NCBI GenBank assembly: GCA_001414325.1
Contig: LLKB01000005.1
Coordinates: 624,303-688,302 of the forward strand
DNA length: 64,000 nt
Source of the DNA: Butyribacter intestini
GTDB lineage: Bacteria > Bacillota > Clostridia > Lachnospirales > Lachnospiraceae
Direction of reading: 5' to 3'
Shown here: one piece after another, positions 9,350 through 59,503 of the stretch
How positions within the stretch are numbered: the stretch's first letter is position 1
How the letters are laid out: each line of letters opens with the position of its first letter
Notes under the pieces: model-generated
Told to the model about the DNA's origin: nothing
Database searches by the model: none
Seen by the model: the letters and a program-made list of their open reading frames with translations, nothing else
Position numbers and translations under genes: made by a program

Positions 9350-10336
9350 CTACAGCAGTCGTAAAAGTTTTTCTTTATGTGATGCAGAAGTAAAAGCTGC
9401 CATTATGGCATTTCTCTCAAAATCTATTATATCATCTTCATCAAATCCAAAAGTATCTGCAAGCATGGTAAGTTCTTTTTTTATGTCTGTTCCGGATACC
9501 ATCATATTGTCCGTATTTATCGTAACTTTAACACCTGCATCCATAAGCTTTTTAATAGGATATTCATTGATATTTTCATATATGTTTGTATTGAGATTGC
9601 TGGTCGGACATAGTTCTAAAGTGATACCACCGTATGAAAGTTTCTTCAATGTATCCGCATTTTCCACTGAACGCACACCATGACCTATCCTTTTTGCTCC
9701 AAATTTAAGGGCATATTCTACACTTGTAGGATTATCTGCTTCTCCTGCGTGTATTGTAAATGGAATATGTTTTTCACGAGCAAGTTCAAATATATCCCTA
9801 AAATCTTTTGTAGGAAAAAGTCCCTCTGCTCCTGCCAGGTCTATCGCAACAACCCCTTTGCCAAGATATTTTTCGGCTGTCTCAACAGTTTCCATATTTT
9901 CAGCATGATTATCATTTCCACGCATACAGCACAAAATAAGACCTGCATCCAAAGATGACCGGTTTAGTCCACGGACAGCGGCTTCAACTGCCATTTTCTG
10001 TGACATCCCTTTTTTCGTATGAAGCTGCGGTGCAAATCTTATCTCTGCATATATAATTCCTTCACTTTTAAGTTCCTCGATAAGTTTATATACGGCAAAA
10101 CTCAGAGCCTCTCCAGTCTGTAAAAGCGTCAGCGGATATTCAAATTTTTCAAGATATTCATTGAGATCTTTGCACTCATGTGACACCTGCAGCCTTTTTA
10201 AAAGTTCTTCATCCGTATTCTCATTTTTAATCCCCTGCATACACATGAGCTCTTTAACCGTCTCAAGAGATAATGAGCCATCCAGATGAAGATGAATGTC
10301 AACAAGTCCTATATTATCTAAGTTTACATTTTTCAC
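9350..10336 (-). CDS. add: Adenosine deaminase
   Basis: Add (328 aa) hydrolyses adenosine or deoxyadenosine to inosine in purine salvage. Zinc and catalytic motifs are in order: VDIHLHLDGSLS (HxH), FTIHAGEAD (His and Glu), RIGHGVRS and TINTDNMMVSGT (Asp). I place the start at a GTG (10336), since GGAAAGGAG lies 10 nt before it. A longer reading begins inside the leader repeat and would add MRRYREYIVK, which is merely the translated repeat end. The leader element (10361-10523) fills the gap to the preceding histidine kinase gene and ends 24 nt before this start. Confidence 0.93.
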   Translation of the reverse strand: MKNVNLDNIGLVDIHLHLDGSLSLETVKELMCMQGIKNENTDEELLKRLQVSHECKDLNEYLEKFEYPLTLLQTGEALSFAVYKLIEELKSEGIIYAEIRFAPQLHTKKGMSQKMAVEAAVRGLNRSSLDAGLILCCMRGNDNHAENMETVETAEKYLGKGVVAIDLAGAEGLFPTKDFRDIFELAREKHIPFTIHAGEADNPTSVEYALKFGAKRIGHGVRSVENADTLKKLSYGGITLELCPTSNLNTNIYENINEYPIKKLMDAGVKVTINTDNMMVSGTDIKKELTMLADTFGFDEDDIIDFERNAIMAAFTSASHKEKLLRLL

Positions 10337-10360
10337 ACTACTTTTTCTCCTTTCCTTTAC

Positions 10361-10523
10361 AATGTACTCTCGGTATCTTCTCAAAACGAGTCATTTCGGC
10401 TGCATTTCCGATATACTGTTTCCATTTTCTCGTCGGACACACCGTGTACGCACTGCGAAAATGTCATTGTATATCAAAAATCCATCTCGAAATTCTTCGT
10501 TCAGAAGATTCCGAGAGTACATT
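10361..10523 (-). repeat. Leader element LE, long copy 1 (before add)
   Basis: A 163-bp element with ~20-bp inverted ends (AATGTACTCTCGGtATCTTC; one mismatch) and internal hairpins such as TCGG...CCGA and CATTTTC...GAAAATG. It matches 27781-27960 along its whole length in the same orientation relative to its downstream gene. The distal end covers the TAA stop of the histidine kinase; the proximal end lies 24 nt before the add GTG, just upstream of the ribosome site. Related short copies are at 48876, 55876 and 59458. Confidence 0.85.
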
Positions 10524-12984
10524 ACACTGCTGCCCTGCTAAGCGTAACCACAACTTTAAACAAATCCCCATCTACAAACACCTCAAGATTTCCATTTTGA
10601 AGCTGCATGAGATTTTGTGCTATTGAAAGTCCAAGTCCACTTCCCTCCGTATTTCTTGACTTATCACCTCTCACAAATCTCTCCATAAGTTCATCACCTG
10701 AAAGGTTAAGCGGCGTTTCAGACATATTTTTTACGGTTATAAGCACTTTATCTGACAATATTTTTGTTTCGCTGTCCTGCTCTTTTTCTGATAGCTCCAC
10801 ATCAATATAAACCCTTGTATCAGGCATTGCGTATTTGTTTATATTTTGGAATATATTATCAAAAACCCTCGACAGATGCCTGCCATCCGCATTTATCTCA
10901 AGCTCGTTTTTAACCTCATCATCCATTCTAAAATTAACTATAGGCATGAGATTTTTCTTTTCAAATTTAGATATATATTCTCCGAGACTTTGCTCAATAA
11001 ATACCGCAATCCCAAGTTTTTCCATATTTACCTCGACATTACCTGTTGATGATTTTGACAAATCAAGCAGGTCATATATAAGATTTTTAAGTCTCAATGA
11101 CTGCCTGTCTAACACATCTATATATCCTGCCGCTGTTTTGTTTTGCAAATCCTCTTTTTTTAAAAGGTCTACATAACTTATTATCGCCGTAACAGGAGTT
11201 TTTATATCGTGTGAAACATTTGTTATAAGCTCCGTTTTCATTCTCTCACTTTTCATCTGCGACTCTACAGCTTTTTTCATTCCATCGCTGATATTATTGA
11301 GAGAATCTGCCTCCATTTTAATTGGAAGCATCATTCCCTTTGTATTTATCTTTCCATCAACACCGCCGGTTGACATTTGTTCTATACCCATATGTAATTT
11401 AGAAATATCCCTAATTACCCTCGCTATAATAATGGTTCCTAATATTTTTGATATAAGTACCGTAAAAAATGCAATCTCTGAACCACTGACAACAGTGAGA
11501 ACACATTCTGTAATACCTGCCACCCAATATACTCCAAATACTATAACACTCAATTTTACCATTGATAAGACTGCTTTTATTATCTTTGCAAAACTAAGTA
11601 TCACCCTCGTTATAAACATATTATCAATAAGTATGCCTGCCTTTACCTGGGCACAAAAAACAGTATAAAACAAAGTGATAAAGATTCCTGCAATAGTGCC
11701 TGCGATTAGACCTCCGATTATAATATTTGAAATGCCATATTTTAAAATACTCTTTATTTTTTCTATGTCTATTTCACTGCTTACAAATAAACTATAACCT
11801 GCCGCTATAGCTGCAATAAGTACGACGACTAAGATGTCTGCAGGCATTCTGTAAAATCTCCTTACCTTACCCTCTTTATTTTGTTCAGCATTTGCAAAAA
11901 ATGCGATAAATATTGACGATATAATAAGCAGAATCCCCGAAAAATATGTCATGAATGAAATAAAATGCTCATGCTCTTTATACCAAAAAATATAATAAAA
12001 ACTATCCCCTGTCTTTAATTGACTGCGTATATTTCCCTCAATACTATAATCACTTGTTCCTACATGATACTGTGTTGCTTTTACATAATAAAATCTATTT
12101 TTTCTATAGACACTACAGGAACCTATTTTGAATTTTCCATTCGCTATCTCATATGCATTTACACTTCTGCCATCACATCCATACAACACTGCTTCCCTAA
12201 ATTCTCCTATAAAAATATCCTCACTGTTTTTTCCAAAATATGTTGCGAAATCTGTTCCTTTCCAATCATTTTCAACCTCAGCCCCCTCAACATCATTTTT
12301 CACTTCTCCACGATCACAAACATCCTCTGCATAAACACTGTCATACAAAACTCTGCATATAAGATTTCCATTGTAAATTTGAAACTTTATGCTTATTCTG
12401 TCATATGGGTATAACTTTTTTAATTTATTTATTATTGTATTCTTGTACTTAGGTATATACTCTCCGCCTGACACCCCCAATTCATAAGTATATTTAATTG
12501 CATCATTATAAAGTTTTTTGCCGTCAAATTTAAATTTAAAATCCCCATAATCATTTATTATATATCTATTTGTCTGTTCAGACATATCAACACAATATCC
12601 GTTCATAACTTCTTTTGTCATATTGTATTTGATGCTTCCTACATATCCGTCATATAAAAACATAAAATTTGAATTTTTATCACTAAAATACTTTTTCTTT
12701 AATCTTGACATCTCACTTAATTTATTAACATAATTCATCTTTTTTAAAGCTTCTTTATTTTGCATAAGTGCAGCATATCGCCCGGCTATCTTTGTCATAC
12801 TGTTCACCCTGCTTTTTATCTCACTTTTTATGCTGCTTTGTCCAAAACCATATTGTCCGATGCCTACAAGATAAACTGTCCCCATCACAATAAAAACAGC
12901 CAGCGATACAGCTTGAACTACATTAAAAAATGCCCTTAAAATTCTTCTGTTGTTTTTCCTCTTAGCAAAAATATCTTTCTTCAT
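10522..12984 (-). CDS. Membrane sensor histidine kinase with large extracytoplasmic domain
   Basis: An 820-aa kinase, partner of the response regulator just upstream. The N-terminal TM (about 20-40) is followed by a roughly 300-residue Tyr/Lys/Asn-rich extracytoplasmic region, then about four further TM segments (FISFMTYFSGILLIISSIFI, ILVVVLIAAIAAGYSLFV, NIIIGGLIAGTIAGIFITLF, and one near VYWVAGITECVLTVV). A HAMP-like stretch follows. The HisKA box is TNVSHDIKTPVTAIISYVDL, and the ATPase part has an N-box (RVFDNIFQNINKYA) and G-box (GSGLGLSIAQN). The C-terminal half is VanS-like; the sensor region is unfamiliar. Its TAA lies within the end of a leader repeat. The ligand is unknown and no obvious target gene is adjacent. 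Confidence 0.92.
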   Translation of the reverse strand: MKKDIFAKRKNNRRILRAFFNVVQAVSLAVFIVMGTVYLVGIGQYGFGQSSIKSEIKSRVNSMTKIAGRYAALMQNKEALKKMNYVNKLSEMSRLKKKYFSDKNSNFMFLYDGYVGSIKYNMTKEVMNGYCVDMSEQTNRYIINDYGDFKFKFDGKKLYNDAIKYTYELGVSGGEYIPKYKNTIINKLKKLYPYDRISIKFQIYNGNLICRVLYDSVYAEDVCDRGEVKNDVEGAEVENDWKGTDFATYFGKNSEDIFIGEFREAVLYGCDGRSVNAYEIANGKFKIGSCSVYRKNRFYYVKATQYHVGTSDYSIEGNIRSQLKTGDSFYYIFWYKEHEHFISFMTYFSGILLIISSIFIAFFANAEQNKEGKVRRFYRMPADILVVVLIAAIAAGYSLFVSSEIDIEKIKSILKYGISNIIIGGLIAGTIAGIFITLFYTVFCAQVKAGILIDNMFITRVILSFAKIIKAVLSMVKLSVIVFGVYWVAGITECVLTVVSGSEIAFFTVLISKILGTIIIARVIRDISKLHMGIEQMSTGGVDGKINTKGMMLPIKMEADSLNNISDGMKKAVESQMKSERMKTELITNVSHDIKTPVTAIISYVDLLKKEDLQNKTAAGYIDVLDRQSLRLKNLIYDLLDLSKSSTGNVEVNMEKLGIAVFIEQSLGEYISKFEKKNLMPIVNFRMDDEVKNELEINADGRHLSRVFDNIFQNINKYAMPDTRVYIDVELSEKEQDSETKILSDKVLITVKNMSETPLNLSGDELMERFVRGDKSRNTEGSGLGLSIAQNLMQLQNGNLEVFVDGDLFKVVVTLSRAAV

Positions 12985-27771: not shown

Positions 27772-27780
27772 AAATGATAA

Positions 27781-27960
27781 AATGTACTCTCAGAATCTTG
27801 TGAACGAAGAATTTTGAAATGGATTTTTGATATATAATGACATTTTCGCAATACATACAAAGTATGTATGCGTACACGGTGTGTACGACGAGAAAATAGA
27901 AACAGTTTATCGGGAATACAGCCGAAACAACTCGTTTTGAGAAGATACTGCGAGTACATT
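27781..27960 (+). repeat. Leader element LE, long copy 2 (before thiE)
   Basis: 180 bp with inverted ends AATGTACTCTCAGAATCTT and AGATACTGCGAGTACATT. It is the same element as 10361-10523 read in add-sense, plus a ~17-nt extra hairpin (ATACATACAAAGTATGTATG region). At the third internal pair of the end helix G-C in the add copy is A-T here, keeping the pairing. It ends 23 nt before the thiE ATG. Confidence 0.85.
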
Positions 27961-27983
27961 AAATAAGAAATGAGGATAAATAA

Positions 27984-28622
27984 ATGAAAGTAAATAAAGA
28001 AAGTATGCTTGTATATGCAATAACAGACAGACATTGGACAGGTGAAAAAACACTTGAACAGCAGGTTGATGAAGTTCTTAAAAACGGTGCCACTTTTTTG
28101 CAAATACGCGAGAAAAATATGCCACATGATGAACTTGTAAAAGAGGCTGTCCTTATTAAAGAGATTGCAAAAAAATATAATGTTCCCGTTGTGATAGACG
28201 ATGACATTTATGCCGTTATCGAGTCAGGTGTTGACGGTGTGCATATCGGTCAGAAAGATATGGATTATATTGAAGCAAGAAAACTTCTCGGTGATGACAA
28301 GATAATAGGTATGACGGCACCAAGTGTTGAACTTGCAAAGAAAGCAGAAAAACTCGGTGCTGACTATATCGGTGCAGGAGCGGTCTTTAACACAAGCACA
28401 AAAAAAGACACCAGACCACTTGAACTTAGCACCCTCAAGGAAATATGCAGCAGCATTTCCATTCCAGTTGTCGCAATCGGTGGTATCGACCACTCTAATG
28501 TCAGAAAACTTAAGGGAACCGATATTGACGGAGTTGCCGTAATCTCCGCACTTTTTGGAGCAGATGACCCTGGCGAAGCCACTAGAGAACTTGTTTCAAT
28601 TATGAAAGATGTAGTTAAATAA
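27984..28622 (+). CDS. thiE: Thiamine phosphate synthase
   Basis: ThiE (212 aa) couples HMP-PP and the thiazole phosphate to thiamine phosphate. The TIM-barrel signatures are VYAITDRHWTGEKTLEQQVD, GATFLQIREKNMPHDELVKE, VPVVIDDDIYAVIESGVDGV, HIGQKDM, ADYIGAGAVFNTSTKKD and PVVAIGGIDHSNV. AATGAGGATAAATA precedes the ATG. It is followed at 20 nt by a HAD phosphatase gene, and convergently by thiC. Unlike thiC, it has no TPP riboswitch; the sequence before it is the long leader element instead. Confidence 0.97.
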   Translation: MKVNKESMLVYAITDRHWTGEKTLEQQVDEVLKNGATFLQIREKNMPHDELVKEAVLIKEIAKKYNVPVVIDDDIYAVIESGVDGVHIGQKDMDYIEARKLLGDDKIIGMTAPSVELAKKAEKLGADYIGAGAVFNTSTKKDTRPLELSTLKEICSSISIPVVAIGGIDHSNVRKLKGTDIDGVAVISALFGADDPGEATRELVSIMKDVVK

Positions 28623-30942: not shown

Positions 30943-31062
30943 GACCATGCAAAATATTTAAAACATATGTGAACCATTTAAACAGAAGTTTTAAATCTTT
31001 AATATTTATAACTGTCTATATATAAATATTAAAAATTTCAAACCGTAATCCACATAAACAAT

Positions 31063-31139
31063 ATCTGCCTACGACAGTACTAACTGTATCAGGTCATATG
31101 GGTCGGATAAAATCCCTCTCAGCATTAAGCTCCCCAGAT
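31063..31139 (-). promoter_or_regulatory. TPP riboswitch aptamer
   Basis: Read on the minus strand: ATCTG-GGGAGC, AATGCTGAGAGGGAT, CCGACCC, GACCTGAT and GTAGGCAGAT, the hallmark boxes of the thiamine pyrophosphate aptamer, with P1 formed by ATCTG/CAGAT. It controls thiC through the terminator at 30905-30942; a 10-bp hairpin (31001-31030) lies between them. Confidence 0.95.
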
Positions 31140-31204
31140 GTATTTGATTATATTTACTTTCAATACTAATGTCAAGATATTTTTTACATTTTAACATACG
31201 AAAC

Positions 31205-47895: not shown

Positions 47896-48327
47896 TTATT
47901 CTTCTATCGTGATACTTCTATAGTCAAATCCTTTTTCAAGATCTTTTTCTATGGTGACACTGATGTGCTCATCCGGTATTATCTCGCTTATAAGACCTGC
48001 CCACTCTATAAGGCATACTCCATTTCCGAAAAAGTAATCCTCATATCCTATCTCATCCATCTCACATACATCGGCAATACGGTAAACATCAAAATGATAA
48101 AGCGGAAGTCTTCCGCTCTCATATATCTGCATAATGGTAAAAGTCGGACTGCATATAGGTTCGTCTATACCAAGTCCTTTGCCAAAACCTTTTGTAAAAA
48201 CGGTCTTTCCGACACCGAGGTCACCATTTAAAAGGATTATGTCCCCCGGTTTGCAATTTTCTCCAAGTTTTTTTCCAAGCTCAAATGTGTCTTTCTCACA
48301 CTGGCTTACCACAACTTTTTTACTCAT
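47896..48327 (-). CDS. tsaE: TsaE, t6A-complex ATPase
   Basis: TsaE (143 aa) is the P-loop ATPase that cycles the TsaB-TsaD complex. Start at 48327 (MSKKVVVSQCEKDTFELGKK), with CGGAGGAACTG upstream; it overlaps the end of the YcxB-like gene by 8 nt. Walker A is GDLGVGKTVFTKG, switch-like SPTFTIMQIYE, Walker B-like LYHFDVYRI and the C-terminal CLIEWAGL, all family standard. Confidence 0.97.
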   Translation of the reverse strand: MSKKVVVSQCEKDTFELGKKLGENCKPGDIILLNGDLGVGKTVFTKGFGKGLGIDEPICSPTFTIMQIYESGRLPLYHFDVYRIADVCEMDEIGYEDYFFGNGVCLIEWAGLISEIIPDEHISVTIEKDLEKGFDYRSITIEE

Positions 48328-48853
48328 CAGTTCCTCCGTTTTCCTCTGTTTCTTCCGGTTCATAGTCTTTGTACTGTTTCACTTTTTCCTGTATAAAACC
48401 GACAAGTGAACCAAAATCATCACCACACTGTTTCTTTGTAAATATAAATGCCCTCACCGGTGACATATAAACATAGACAGCATCCTTTACAATAACCGTC
48501 TTTCTTATATCATACCACTTTACATCTGCTTCCTGTTCTCCCTGCGAAACAGTAATACCGTTATCACTTATATTATAGTGTAGTTTAGCATTTATACTCT
48601 TGTTCTTTTTCACCTGTGCATTTGCCTTACTCCAAAGCATGAGCGGCTGTATAACGGTAAATATAAGACCTATTATTATAAGAGCCATAATGGCAGTTTT
48701 GTCAAGGTATTTATATCTCACTGCACATATTATAAGACTTCCAAAACTAATAATAAGTCCAAAAATTCCTGACATACTCTTATAGGTGTGTCTCATCGAA
48801 AATGCGTAAAGCTCAGCCGCACTAAGTTTTGCATCAAAATTAAATTCAGTCAT
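48320..48853 (-). CDS. YcxB-like membrane protein
   Basis: A 177-aa protein; start at 48853 (MTEFNFDAKLSAAELY) with TATGGAGGATT upstream. An upstream ATG lies in the leader repeat and would only add its translation. Two TM segments (SGIFGLIISFGSLIICAV; IMALIIIGLIFTVIQPLML) precede a YcxB-type C-terminal domain (LHYNISDNGITVSQGEQEAD, VKWYDIRKTVIVKDAVYVYM, AFIFTKKQCG). The function is unknown. It is the first gene of the tsa run, with a promoter and a short leader element before it. Confidence 0.8.
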   Translation of the reverse strand: MTEFNFDAKLSAAELYAFSMRHTYKSMSGIFGLIISFGSLIICAVRYKYLDKTAIMALIIIGLIFTVIQPLMLWSKANAQVKKNKSINAKLHYNISDNGITVSQGEQEADVKWYDIRKTVIVKDAVYVYMSPVRAFIFTKKQCGDDFGSLVGFIQEKVKQYKDYEPEETEENGGTDE

Positions 48854-48875
48854 TAAAATCCTCCATATTAGTTTT

Positions 48876-48919
48876 ATGTTCTCTCTGTATTTTCTGAATA
48901 AAGATTTCCGAGAGAACAT
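48876..48919 (-). repeat. Leader element LE, short copy (before the YcxB-like gene)
   Basis: TGTTCTCTCGG...AGAGAGAACAT: the two ends of the long element joined with a 5-nt loop. The fourth base pair is T-A here against A-T in the add copy, so pairing is kept. It ends 22 nt before the start codon, 5' of the ribosome site, and lies inside the predicted transcript. Confidence 0.75.
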
Positions 48920-48941
48920 TTTTTAGGCATACTGCCCCACT

Positions 48942-55835: not shown

Positions 55836-55875
55836 TAAATTACCGGCAGAATCTATGATGCAGCCGGCAATGATT

Positions 55876-55925
55876 AATGTACTCCCAAAATTCTTCGTTC
55901 AGAATATTTCAAGAGTACCTATTAC
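55876..55925 (+). repeat. Leader element LE, short copy (between regulator and kinase genes)
   Basis: AATGTACTCCCAAAATTCTT...AGAATATTTCAAGAGTACC: a 50-nt near-palindrome made of the two ends of the long element. It ends 17 nt before the kinase ATG, immediately 5' of GGGAGGAAAT, and is inside an operon, so it must be transcribed. Confidence 0.7.
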
Positions 55926-55942
55926 ATCCCGGGAGGAAATTT

Positions 55943-57364
55943 ATGCAGTCTAAAATAAAAATATCACTTCGATTTAAATTTTTAATCTGTTATCTCTTGC
56001 TTGTAGTATTGACCGTTGGATTGTTAAATACCTACGGTCACAAACTTATGTACCAGAGATTACTTGATAATGCTGAGACAAGTATATACAACGAAGCAGA
56101 GGAGATAAAATCACAATATCTTGCCAATGCATATCTGGTTAAAAGTTCGATAACATCTATCAGAAAACAGCTCTGTGCAATACACAATGCAACCGGAATA
56201 CGCATTTGGATAAGTGAAACTGACGGAAAAATAATCATTGATTCAGATATGCAAAAAAATAAAGAAGGCTATAATATCAATGAGTATGATTCCTCTCTGC
56301 TCTCAAAGCAGACGGTAAACAGCACTAATGCTGACAATCTGCTGTCAGACCAATCATTCTGTGTTGTATATCCCGTCACATCAGGACTTGACATCAGCTT
56401 TTATATCATATTGTCACTGCCGGTAAACACGCTGCATTCACAGGCAGTGCAGAATGTGGATGCGATACTTATATGCTATATCATAATATCGGCTCTGCTG
56501 TTTATCGCACTCCTCTTTCTTTATCTGCAGACTGTTATTCCTCTTAAGAGTATGCAGCAGGCAGCAAAGGAATATGCAGCCGGTCACTATGACTACCAAA
56601 TGCCTGAATATGCAGGTCATGACCATACAGACCTTGCCGGAGCAATACAGTATCTTGCGACAAAAATGAAAGATACAAATGAATATCAGAAAAACTTTAT
56701 TGCAAATGTGTCGCATGATTTCAGGTCACCACTCACATCCATCAAAGGTTATACACAGGCTATGGCAGATGGTACTATTCCTCCGGAAATGCAGGGAAAA
56801 TATCTCGACATAATACTTTTTGAGGTTGAACGATTAACAAAACTTACAAACAATCTACTGTCACTCAGTGAATTTGAAAACAAGGGAGTTCCCCTTGAAA
56901 TATCGACTTTTGATATAAACAAGGAATTAAAACGCTGTCTCGCAACCTTTGAACAACGCTGCACCCAAAAGCACATTTCTCTTGATATAACCTTTGATGC
57001 CAAGACTTCACTTGTAGATGCCGATCAAAGCAAAATCGAGCAGGTTATACAAAATCTCGTAGACAATGCAATAAAATTCAGCAATGACGATTCAACTATC
57101 GAGATACATACAAGAGAAAAAAATCAAAAAGTATTTGTATCAGTAAAAGACCACGGTATAGGCATTCCAAAAGAAAGTCTTGGAAAAGTATGGAAACGCT
57201 TTTACAAAACTGACCTTTCCCGCGGTAAAGATAAAAAAGGTACAGGACTCGGACTTCCCATTACTAAAGAAATCATTGAAAACCATGGTGAAAACATAAA
57301 TGTTATAAGCACCGAAGGTGTAGGTACGGAATTTATCTTCTCCCTGCCTAAACATACCGAATAA
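55943..57364 (+). CDS. Sensor histidine kinase
   Basis: A 473-aa kinase. Start at 55943 (MQSKIKISLRFKFL) with GGGAGGAAATTT upstream. TM1 (about 12-30), an extracytoplasmic sensor of about 140 residues, TM2 (about 170-192; AILICYIIISALLFIALLFL), HAMP (about 195-245). HisKA box FIANVSHDFRSPLTSIKGYT, N-box QVIQNLVDNAIKFS, G1 KDHGIGIPKESLGKVWKRFY, G2 GTGLGLPITKEI. The PhoR/ResE-like class. It pairs with the OmpR-type regulator 107 nt upstream; the gap holds a short leader element. Confidence 0.94.
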   Translation: MQSKIKISLRFKFLICYLLLVVLTVGLLNTYGHKLMYQRLLDNAETSIYNEAEEIKSQYLANAYLVKSSITSIRKQLCAIHNATGIRIWISETDGKIIIDSDMQKNKEGYNINEYDSSLLSKQTVNSTNADNLLSDQSFCVVYPVTSGLDISFYIILSLPVNTLHSQAVQNVDAILICYIIISALLFIALLFLYLQTVIPLKSMQQAAKEYAAGHYDYQMPEYAGHDHTDLAGAIQYLATKMKDTNEYQKNFIANVSHDFRSPLTSIKGYTQAMADGTIPPEMQGKYLDIILFEVERLTKLTNNLLSLSEFENKGVPLEISTFDINKELKRCLATFEQRCTQKHISLDITFDAKTSLVDADQSKIEQVIQNLVDNAIKFSNDDSTIEIHTREKNQKVFVSVKDHGIGIPKESLGKVWKRFYKTDLSRGKDKKGTGLGLPITKEIIENHGENINVISTEGVGTEFIFSLPKHTE

Positions 57365-58240: not shown

Positions 58241-58379
58241 GACAGTGGATGCGAAAGCCATACCGCAAGAACTCAGTTCCTGTCCGCACACTATAGTGCG
58301 TACAACAACAGATATTTTCTTTTCGCCCAAAGACAACTTCCCATCCTTTGGTACTTAACGCATGACTTCCTACTCTGTT
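58241..58379 (-). promoter_or_regulatory. Tetrahydrofolate (THF) riboswitch
   Basis: On the minus strand the boxes AGAGTAGG, ATGCGTTAAGT, AGGATGGGAAGTTG, GGGCGAAAAG, CGGTATGGC and TCGCATCC occur in the order of the THF-I aptamer. The closing stem is ACAG/CTGT. The variable arm is longer than usual (GCACACTATAGTGC region). It lies before folT with a terminator in between. Confidence 0.85.
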
Positions 58380-58442: not shown

Positions 58443-59432
58443 TTATTTGTATTCGCATCTTGTTCCAAGAATACCTGCTACTTCATACTCATAATCATCA
58501 ATACTCTTTGTCATCTGGAATGCTTCCTCAATGTCAACATCATAGACATGACCTTCTTTATAACCAATAAGTCTGTTCTTCTTGCCTTTTTCGATACAGT
58601 CAATGGCATATGCACCCATAACTGAAGCGTAAACTCTGTCTCTTGCTGTAGGACTTCCTCCACGCTGTAAATGTCCGAGGATAGTAGCGCGCGTCTCGAT
58701 ACCTGTTGCCTCTTCAATTTTCTTTGCAAGACCATATGAATGACCAATTCCCTCAGCATTTACAATAATCTGATGTGTCATACCGCTTGCACGGTTATTC
58801 TTTATCTCCTCGATAAGTTTATCATAGTTGTTGTCAAACTTCTCAGGTATAAGAATCTGTTCTGCACCGTTTGCAATACCACACCAGAGTGCAATATAAC
58901 CGGCTGAACGTCCCATTACCTCAACTACACTGCAGCGCTCATGTGAATTTGATGTCTCACGAAGTCTGTCGATAGCTTCCATAGCTGTATTTACTGCCGT
59001 GTCAAATCCGATAGTATAATCTGTATATGCAATGTCAAGGTCTATAGTTCCAGGAAGACCGATAACATTAACACCATATTTTGAAAGGTTCTTAGCTCCT
59101 GTAAATGATCCGTCACCACCGATAACGATAAGTGTCTCTATACCAAGTTCCTTACAGATTGCTGCTGCCTTTTTCTTTCCCTCTTCCTCTCTGAACTCAG
59201 CACTTCTCGCTGTAAAAAGGAATGTACCACCATGCTGAAGTTTCTCTGAAACATCATGGAAAGTAAGAAGATCCATCTCTCTGTTAAGGATACCATTATA
59301 TCCTCTTCTGACCCCATATACTTCATATCCTTTAGAAATACCTGTACGCACTACCGCACGAATTGCAGCATTCATTCCCGGAGCATCTCCTCCACTTGTC
59401 AATACCGCAATCTTACCCTTTGTCTCACTCAT
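58443..59432 (-). CDS. pfkA: ATP-dependent 6-phosphofructokinase
   Basis: PfkA (329 aa) phosphorylates fructose 6-phosphate in glycolysis. Start at 59432 (MSETKGKIAVLTSGG) with AATGGAGGATA upstream; longer in-frame starts translate only the leader repeat. Motifs: TSGGDAPGMNAAIRAVV, GGDGSFTGA (Gly for ATP preference), PGTIDLDIAYTDYTIGFDTA (catalytic Asp pair kept; the residue between them is Leu instead of the usual Asn), EVMGRSAGYIALW, LGHLQRGGSPTARDR. The Asn-to-Leu change is unusual. Confidence 0.95.
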   Translation of the reverse strand: MSETKGKIAVLTSGGDAPGMNAAIRAVVRTGISKGYEVYGVRRGYNGILNREMDLLTFHDVSEKLQHGGTFLFTARSAEFREEEGKKKAAAICKELGIETLIVIGGDGSFTGAKNLSKYGVNVIGLPGTIDLDIAYTDYTIGFDTAVNTAMEAIDRLRETSNSHERCSVVEVMGRSAGYIALWCGIANGAEQILIPEKFDNNYDKLIEEIKNNRASGMTHQIIVNAEGIGHSYGLAKKIEEATGIETRATILGHLQRGGSPTARDRVYASVMGAYAIDCIEKGKKNRLIGYKEGHVYDVDIEEAFQMTKSIDDYEYEVAGILGTRCEYK

Positions 59433-59457
59433 TTTATTATCCTCCATTCCATTTGCT

Positions 59458-59503
59458 ATGTACTCTCTGTATCTTCTCAAGACGAAGAATTTTGAGTGCA
59501 CAT
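59458..59503 (-). repeat. Leader element LE, short copy (before pfkA)
   Basis: Read in pfkA sense the right end TTGAGAAGATAC-GAGAGTACAT equals that of the add and thiE copies; the left end ATGTGCACTCAAAATTCTTC pairs with it imperfectly. It ends 25 nt before the start codon and lies inside the predicted pfkA transcript. Confidence 0.78.

Follow-up and report, generated by a model that had tools for sequence, protein, structure and literature searches.

A small palindromic element of Butyribacter intestini that probably inserts at a measured distance from Shine-Dalgarno-type DNA

Results

Five copies in the window

The window, that is, the whole 64,000-bp stretch of DNA analyzed here, is C5:624303-688302 of the Butyribacter intestini genome (3.61 Mb; G000 below). 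It holds five copies of a repeat, each directly 5' of the ribosome site of a gene (Table 1), with gaps to the start codon of 25, 24, 22, 22 and 25 nt (add, thiE, YcxB-like, kinase and pfkA). An earlier note had placed these copies correctly to within 1-5 bases; its statements that their ends form a helix and that the five downstream genes are unrelated also hold, the latter being confirmed by Pfam. For pfkA, the start called automatically is an upstream in-frame ATG, which leaves a gap of 10, and the start that follows the Shine-Dalgarno sequence (SD) is an ATG 25 nt from the element.

Table 1. Features of the five element copies in the window
Feature	Position	Strand	Remarks
add copy, element	10362..10522	-	full-length, 161 bp, B arm toward gene
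add copy, target duplication, gene-side	10358..10361		TACA
add copy, target duplication, distal	10523..10526		TACA
add copy, SD	10347..10351	-	AGGAG; GGAG 11 nt from element edge
add, adenosine deaminase (downstream gene)	9350..10336	-	Pfam PF00962
thiE copy, element	27782..27959	+	full-length, 178 bp, 17 extra internal bases
thiE copy, target duplication, distal	27778..27781		TAAA
thiE copy, target duplication, gene-side	27960..27963		TAAA
thiE copy, SD	27972..27975	+	GAGG
thiE, thiamine-phosphate synthase (downstream gene)	27984..28622	+	Pfam PF02581
YcxB-like copy, element	48876..48919	-	short, 44 bp
YcxB-like copy, target duplication, gene-side	48872..48875		AAAA (low complexity)
YcxB-like copy, target duplication, distal	48920..48923		AAAA (low complexity)
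YcxB-like copy, SD	48860..48864	-	GGAGG; 11 nt from element edge
YcxB-like protein (downstream gene)	48320..48853	-	Pfam PF14317
Kinase copy, element	55877..55920	+	short, 44 bp, degenerate
Kinase copy, target duplication, distal	55873..55876		ATTA
Kinase copy, target duplication, gene-side	55921..55924		ATTA
Kinase copy, SD	55932..55936	+	GGAGG; 11 nt from element edge
Sensor histidine kinase (downstream gene)	55943..57364	+	Pfam PF00512/PF02518
pfkA copy, element	59458..59503	-	short, 46 bp; exact target duplication no longer present
pfkA copy, SD	59441..59445	-	GGAGG; 12 nt from element edge
pfkA, 6-phosphofructokinase (downstream gene)	58443..59447	-	as auto-called; Pfam PF00365

Compared to shuffled sequences, fold energies gave z values of -10.1 (add) and -5.4 (thiE) for the full-length copies and of -4.3, -2.1 and -3.3 for the short ones. 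The kinase copy is separated by 41 nt from the preceding ORF on the same strand, and several copies follow an upstream ORF by no more than 70 nt. A scan of the add copy, at that site only, found neither promoter nor terminator. None of the five sites matched an Rfam family at gathering score; at lax thresholds, the elements of six other loci matched only miRNA models, below the cut-off. Above gathering score, Rfam detects two riboswitches in the window, THF (58241-58379, minus strand) and TPP (31049-31146, minus strand).

A family of dispersed copies

The count of five proved far too low: the copies belong to a short palindromic family dispersed genome-wide, with at least 48 two-ended copies in the B. 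intestini genome, and partial ones besides. The ends are ATGTACTCTCGG, a terminal repeat that is near-perfect in intact copies. The full-length form is a near-palindrome of 155-178 bp and the short form measures 44-53 bp, mostly 44 or 46 bp; over all two-ended copies, sizes span 44-277 bp. When the copy at 10361-10523 was used for a blast search of its own genome, at least 54 matches were obtained, corresponding to about 40 distinct places (40 of the 79 first-look candidates scored), and the end pattern of the element, at 2 mismatches or fewer, matched 64 times there compared to once for the reversed pattern. Near-identical copies (98% in G000, with similar copies in G061/G100 and G062) point to recent movement.

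Our main set comprises 107 two-ended copies from 13 genome handles, gathered by element ends or by blast, with no SD pattern used for any of them; to prevent circularity, whatever the CCTCC pattern had retrieved was deliberately kept out. G100 and G061 are one genome and were counted once, and 40 loci were fetched of the 136 end matches in G062. Outside the set are seven partial or single-ended places in G000 (L022, L024, L028, L030, L031b, L032 and L045), L098, L101 and the first end in L100, the G062 loci without a pair (L159, L160, L175, L182 and L187), the G013 copies cut by contig ends (L105-L107 and L111-L114), the family loci without a pair (L201, L205, L210, L212, L216 and L221), and repeats of places already included. 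The gene side of each copy is the flank with the better SD score; a separate count of GGAGG took both flanks, with no such choice.

Several forms depart from the two common sizes. Longer forms of 224-233 bp are found in G062 (two copies in L167, and L181, L183 and L193), a variant with about 62 extra bases, and all five have duplications of at least 4 bp. In L020 (G000:C5, around 1276108-1276225), an element copy seems to have a palindromic repeat of another kind, about 120 bp long, nested within it. The decayed one-ended copies L022, L030, L031 (1992-2027), L032, L098, L100 and L101 retain the end on the SD side, and deletions on the side away from the SD seem to be tolerated. In the L221 copy (G224, from position 1501), the gene-side end is missing and an element-internal GCAGGAG now stands where the following gene has its SD. 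Finally, a very short remnant, ATGTACTCCGGGAGTACAT, occupies the same site in L249 (G155) and L250 (G446), two species of one genus, which argues that some copies are vertically inherited.

Distribution among genomes

By blast, 3 of 61 genomes match, the B. intestini genome included, and one of them (G057) does so by a weak 38-base stretch only. Within the genus, the end pattern with up to 2 mismatches occurs in 3 of 28 genomes, and discounting a lone match without second end (G009) leaves 2 of 28. In a sample of the family, the exact end pattern was present in 14 of 397 genomes, belonging to 13 genera, compared to none for the reversed control, a search in which diverged copies would be missed. 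In a sample of the order, the composite pattern described below was found in 7 of 392 genomes, three of them outside the family with one match each, which does not exceed the three matches of the reversed control. Named carriers (12 stretches) are Eubacterium sp. MSJ-13 (G013), Falcatimonas sp. MSJ-15 and Clostridiaceae bacterium isolate C65_88; in the NCBI taxonomy, Falcatimonas belongs to Clostridiaceae and MSJ-13 to Eubacteriaceae. One match in Acidobacteria and two in Winogradskyella, all lacking a second end, appear fortuitous. Neither plasmids and phages nor viral contigs gave a match. Since the exact pattern is absent from most sampled members of the family, it is a poor fit to an ancient housekeeping leader.

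Position relative to genes and to GGAGG

In 95 of the 107 copies, an ORF of 45 codons or more begins 15-28 nt from the element (median 23 nt). Positions 15-28 nt ahead of a called start make up 6.9% of the intergenic bases of the window; treating copies as independent and applying this window fraction to all genomes, the binomial tail is about 6e-96 for 95/107, and about 1.6e-6 for the original five out of five. An earlier subset gave 31 of 33 two-ended copies (5 from the window and 28 others) with an ORF start at this distance. Of the remaining two, L011 has an SD and an ATG 15-28 nt away on its other flank, but the ORF has only 37 codons, and L026 has neither SD nor start at that distance. 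Twelve of the 107 copies fail the ORF test; in some of these an SD is followed by no more than a short or truncated ORF.

The spacing varies less relative to GGAGG than relative to the start codon. Measured from the element edge, the best GG-containing motif is at offset 11 in 64 of the 107 copies and at offsets 10-12 in 89; in three copies (L026, L188 and L208) the searched stretch contains no SD-like motif. With both flanks counted, exact GGAGG occurs 71 times at offsets 10-12 compared to 10 times at all other offsets from 0 to 50, and at offsets 10-12 it is never present on both flanks of one copy. At these same offsets the permuted motifs are found 9 (AGGGG), 9 (GAGGG), 5 (GGGAG) and 7 (GGGGA) times, and CCTCC once. 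Moreover, the composite pattern CCTCC-N10-13-ATGTACTC gave 81 matches in nine chosen genomes, a few of them without second end, compared to one for its reversed control. Further ends beside CCTCC, outside the copies examined, lie at G000:C1:591303, C1:626433 and C5:110291.

The spacing is also kept where no gene begins: by inspection, L028 (one-ended, and outside the 107), L167:2426 and L204 have it at a GGAG within a terminator-like hairpin without start codon, and no ORF of 45 codons lies downstream in L167:2426 and L204. A census of GGAGG in the window counted 26 SDs, 1 intergenic motif without called gene and 38 motifs in coding sequence. A count on cut loci (SD, intergenic non-SD and in-ORF: 63/58/103 in G000, 30/112/245 in G062) spoke against the 26:1 ratio; it was discarded in favor of the intact window because genes cut by the ends of the loci are missed there. 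Given 26 SDs to one other intergenic motif, insertion directed by the motif and followed by loss inside genes predicts survivors that are almost only SD-linked, as seen.

Target duplications and a ruler

The 107 copies are flanked by direct repeats of 4 bp in 64 cases and of 5 bp in 14; two others have 3 bp only, and 25 are without exact duplication of at least 3 bp. Identical flanking 4-mers were counted in 65 of 107 copies compared to a shuffled mean of 3.0 (maximum 11), and identical 5-mers in 14 of 107 compared to 0.7 (maximum 4). The length of the duplication and the offset of GGAGG shift together: 50 of the 64 copies with a 4-bp duplication have offset 11, and 9 of the 14 with a 5-bp duplication have offset 12. 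Offset minus duplication thus equals 7 in 60 of the 79 copies having both a duplication of at least 4 bp and a motif, the other 19 departing from this value. A staggered cut measured from GGAGG would produce such a co-shift, and selection on a leader would not link the two lengths. On this sequence evidence, the flanking repeats are a mark of transposition and the constant 7 bp between duplication and GGAGG is a molecular ruler.

Short forms behave similarly, with a duplication of at least 4 bp in 28 of 38 and an offset of 10-12 in 33 of 38. They are probably internal deletions of the element and, on inspection, look like deletions between short repeats located inside it and at its end. As they retain duplications and offset, either the short forms are themselves mobile or they became shorter after insertion.

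One could imagine that insertion between genes is random and that selection then keeps only the copies just upstream of an SD. An element landing inside a gene, or separating an SD from its start codon, would indeed do harm, and such selection explains the lower limit of the distance. It accounts neither for the sharp peak at 11 nt nor for the co-shift with duplication length, and 93% of the intergenic bases of the window lie elsewhere than 15-28 nt before a start; this scheme is strongly disfavored, and we give it almost no credence.

Hairpin structure and strand asymmetry

When aligned, 19 full-length copies taken from 10 genomes form one homologous element of about 162 bp with two sequence types, A and B; its interior length and structure are conserved across genera. 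The consensus hairpin has 58 pairs, with 94.7% of cells paired. Both sides have changed in 23 of the 58 pairs, compared to 18.3 in shuffles (a value reached in 3 of 500), and covariation is 0.367 compared to 0.188 in shuffles (reached in 0 of 500) and at most 0.099 with partners slid; further pair types are not above shuffles (58 compared to 56.3, 134 of 500). Pair changes fall mostly between the two types, so that they represent fewer events than cells, and the arms of a palindrome can stay alike at the DNA level without selection on RNA; covariation is therefore no proof of an RNA.

The earlier note held that all copies share one orientation relative to the gene. The five of the window do always lie 5' of their gene, but the arms point either way, 27:23 in the 50 full-length copies; a 10:3 ratio in G000 had looked like a signal and was dropped in view of the whole set. 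One strand folds better than the other in 47 of these 50 copies (32 of 32 for type B, 15 of 18 for type A). In the consensus, the transition mismatches between the arms are 11 G-U and 0 A-C in type B, and 3 and 2 in type A; as the asymmetry is clear in type B and not clear in type A, we do not take it as proof.

The structural part of the note's proposal stands, with a hairpin conserved across genera and many compensatory changes. Its preferred reading was a cis-acting RNA element. As a leader selected by the host and recruited to many genes, the hairpin would control translation or stability of the downstream mRNA. The conserved and covarying hairpin, the low folding energies and the usual place of the element 5' of the SD are in favor of this reading. 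It is nevertheless very improbable: target duplications come with a ruler, insertions occur at terminator-like hairpins, orientation is close to even although the strands fold differently, the five window genes are unrelated and without an Rfam match at gathering score at their elements, and clear carriers number 2 of 28 genomes in the genus. The data bear out the alternative that the note mentioned, an insertion element with strict target preference: duplications measure 4-5 bp, and the spacing of 7 bp to GGAGG moves along with duplication length. The note's own refuting condition for its RNA reading was a scatter of copies both in position and in orientation; orientation is near random and position is not, and as worded the condition suits neither reading.

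Under targeting by the function of the site, rather than by its DNA, the transposition complex would recognize the SD through the ribosome, within an R-loop or on mRNA that is still being made, and insertions would track translation starts themselves. The large share of copies at gene starts and the strand asymmetry, both in folding and in the mismatches of type B, are consistent with it. We find it unlikely, as the three insertions at terminator-like hairpins keep the same spacing from GGAG without start codon, and as the 26:1 ratio of intergenic GGAGG in the window makes an extra preference unneeded. We consider it more likely that the motif is recognized as DNA than that the SD is sensed via RNA or ribosomes. 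Given the even orientation, the strand-specific fold is unlikely to be for the downstream gene and, if selected, would be for the element; it is more likely that the asymmetry matters for mobility than for the host gene. Transcription-linked mutation bias may also be its source. There is a slim chance that the folded RNA of the element, from the strand that folds better and with the G-U excess in type B, is a working part of the mobility machine and that the target is found by a reading of the Shine-Dalgarno motif; this would be a small RNA-assisted transposition system for which the host's translation start signal serves as the address.

Discussion

A proposed mechanism and the search for a transposase

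The marks of mobility, the ruler, the motif and the lack of orientation can all be read from the sequences themselves. They make it likely that the element is a non-autonomous, MITE-like mobile element, inserting with a ruler beside Shine-Dalgarno-type DNA. A transposase acting in trans, presumably of the DDE type, would recognize GGAGG as DNA, directly or via a partner, make a staggered cut 7 bp 5' of it with a stagger of 4-5 bp, and join the element in either orientation. Insertions inside genes would be purged, and survivors would then align just before start codons because a GGAGG between genes nearly always belongs to a ribosome site. The downstream gene would retain its own SD and acquire a leader hairpin. 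The site would thus be a safe harbor, transcribed and not disruptive, where insertion is presumably neutral for the host gene. The conservation of interior length and structure exceeds what a plain MITE needs, and counts against this explanation.

The search for an autonomous partner covered several sets of loci. Perfect 10-bp ends in G100, G171, G446 and G335 include no kilobase-spaced pair, and 44 loci, of 45 rve/DDE_Tnp_1 matches in four genomes, have no pair of such ends that is spaced by 0.9-2.9 kb and accompanied by a direct repeat. No partner was found at the single ends L098, L100, L101, L201, L205, L210, L211, L212, L216, L221, L226 and L022, nor at 30 loci of ends beside CCTCC in nine genomes (a part of the 81 matches). 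One candidate, L302 (G000:C5, around 1062000-1064000), encodes a 448-aa DDE_Tnp_1 transposase 88 bp from an old single element end; it was rejected, being an IS with its own 24-bp inverted repeats. In one search for an empty site none was seen, the matches being paralogues.

Relation to known elements

Bacterial MITEs such as Correia/NEMIS, RUP, BOX, ERIC and YPAL are short, non-coding and dispersed in many copies, with terminal inverted repeats and target duplications; the inverted repeats, the target-site duplication and the short, multiple, dispersed copies are all found here. The present element differs from them in targeting the ribosome site at a fixed spacing. Hairpin RNAs have been proposed for some bacterial MITEs (PMC2229807), and RUP and BOX are reported to be over-represented between convergent genes in pneumococcus (PMC3049150). 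The main text of a review of prokaryotic MITEs (PMC10969869) does not contain 'Shine-Dalgarno', 'ribosome' or 'start codon'.

Other comparisons concern target choice and mode of movement. IS256-type elements duplicate 8-9 bp of target. REPs and REPINs, which are moved by RAYT transposases, are small dispersed palindromes without a transposase of their own, and REPs are not known to make a target duplication; the element studied here differs in having both terminal inverted repeats and duplications. Group B IStrons have an IS607-type serine recombinase. Transposons are known to use safe sites such as tRNA genes, attTn7 and terminators. Mutator-like elements of the TnGBS, ISLre2 and ISKra4 kinds (p-MULT) are described as inserting 15-17 bases before the -35 region of sigma-A promoters, with an orientation ascribed to unequal ends (PMC3942029). 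Our element shares with them a fixed distance upstream of a gene-expression signal, but that signal is GGAGG, the duplication is 4-5 bp and the orientation is 27:23. The REPs reported in PMC3733652 have a GTAG or CGTC tag. Group B IStrons, described as a group I intron combined with an IS with its own ORFs (PMC4227781), resemble the element in their GG-containing target, and differ from it in size and coding content. The nearest known principle is the promoter-directed insertion of TnGBS and related Mutator-like transposons, and the nearest objects are MITEs. In the full-text literature, a coverage that excludes subscription papers and ISfinder, no transposon insertion measured from a Shine-Dalgarno motif was found.

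Significance

If true, insertion measured from the Shine-Dalgarno motif would extend the addresses used by transposons, among which promoters are already reported (PMC3942029), to the translation start signal. This would account for the spread of one small repeat throughout a genome with little damage, and many genes would get a chance to gain a leader hairpin. The transposase, once found, could become a tool for placing DNA just before ribosome sites.
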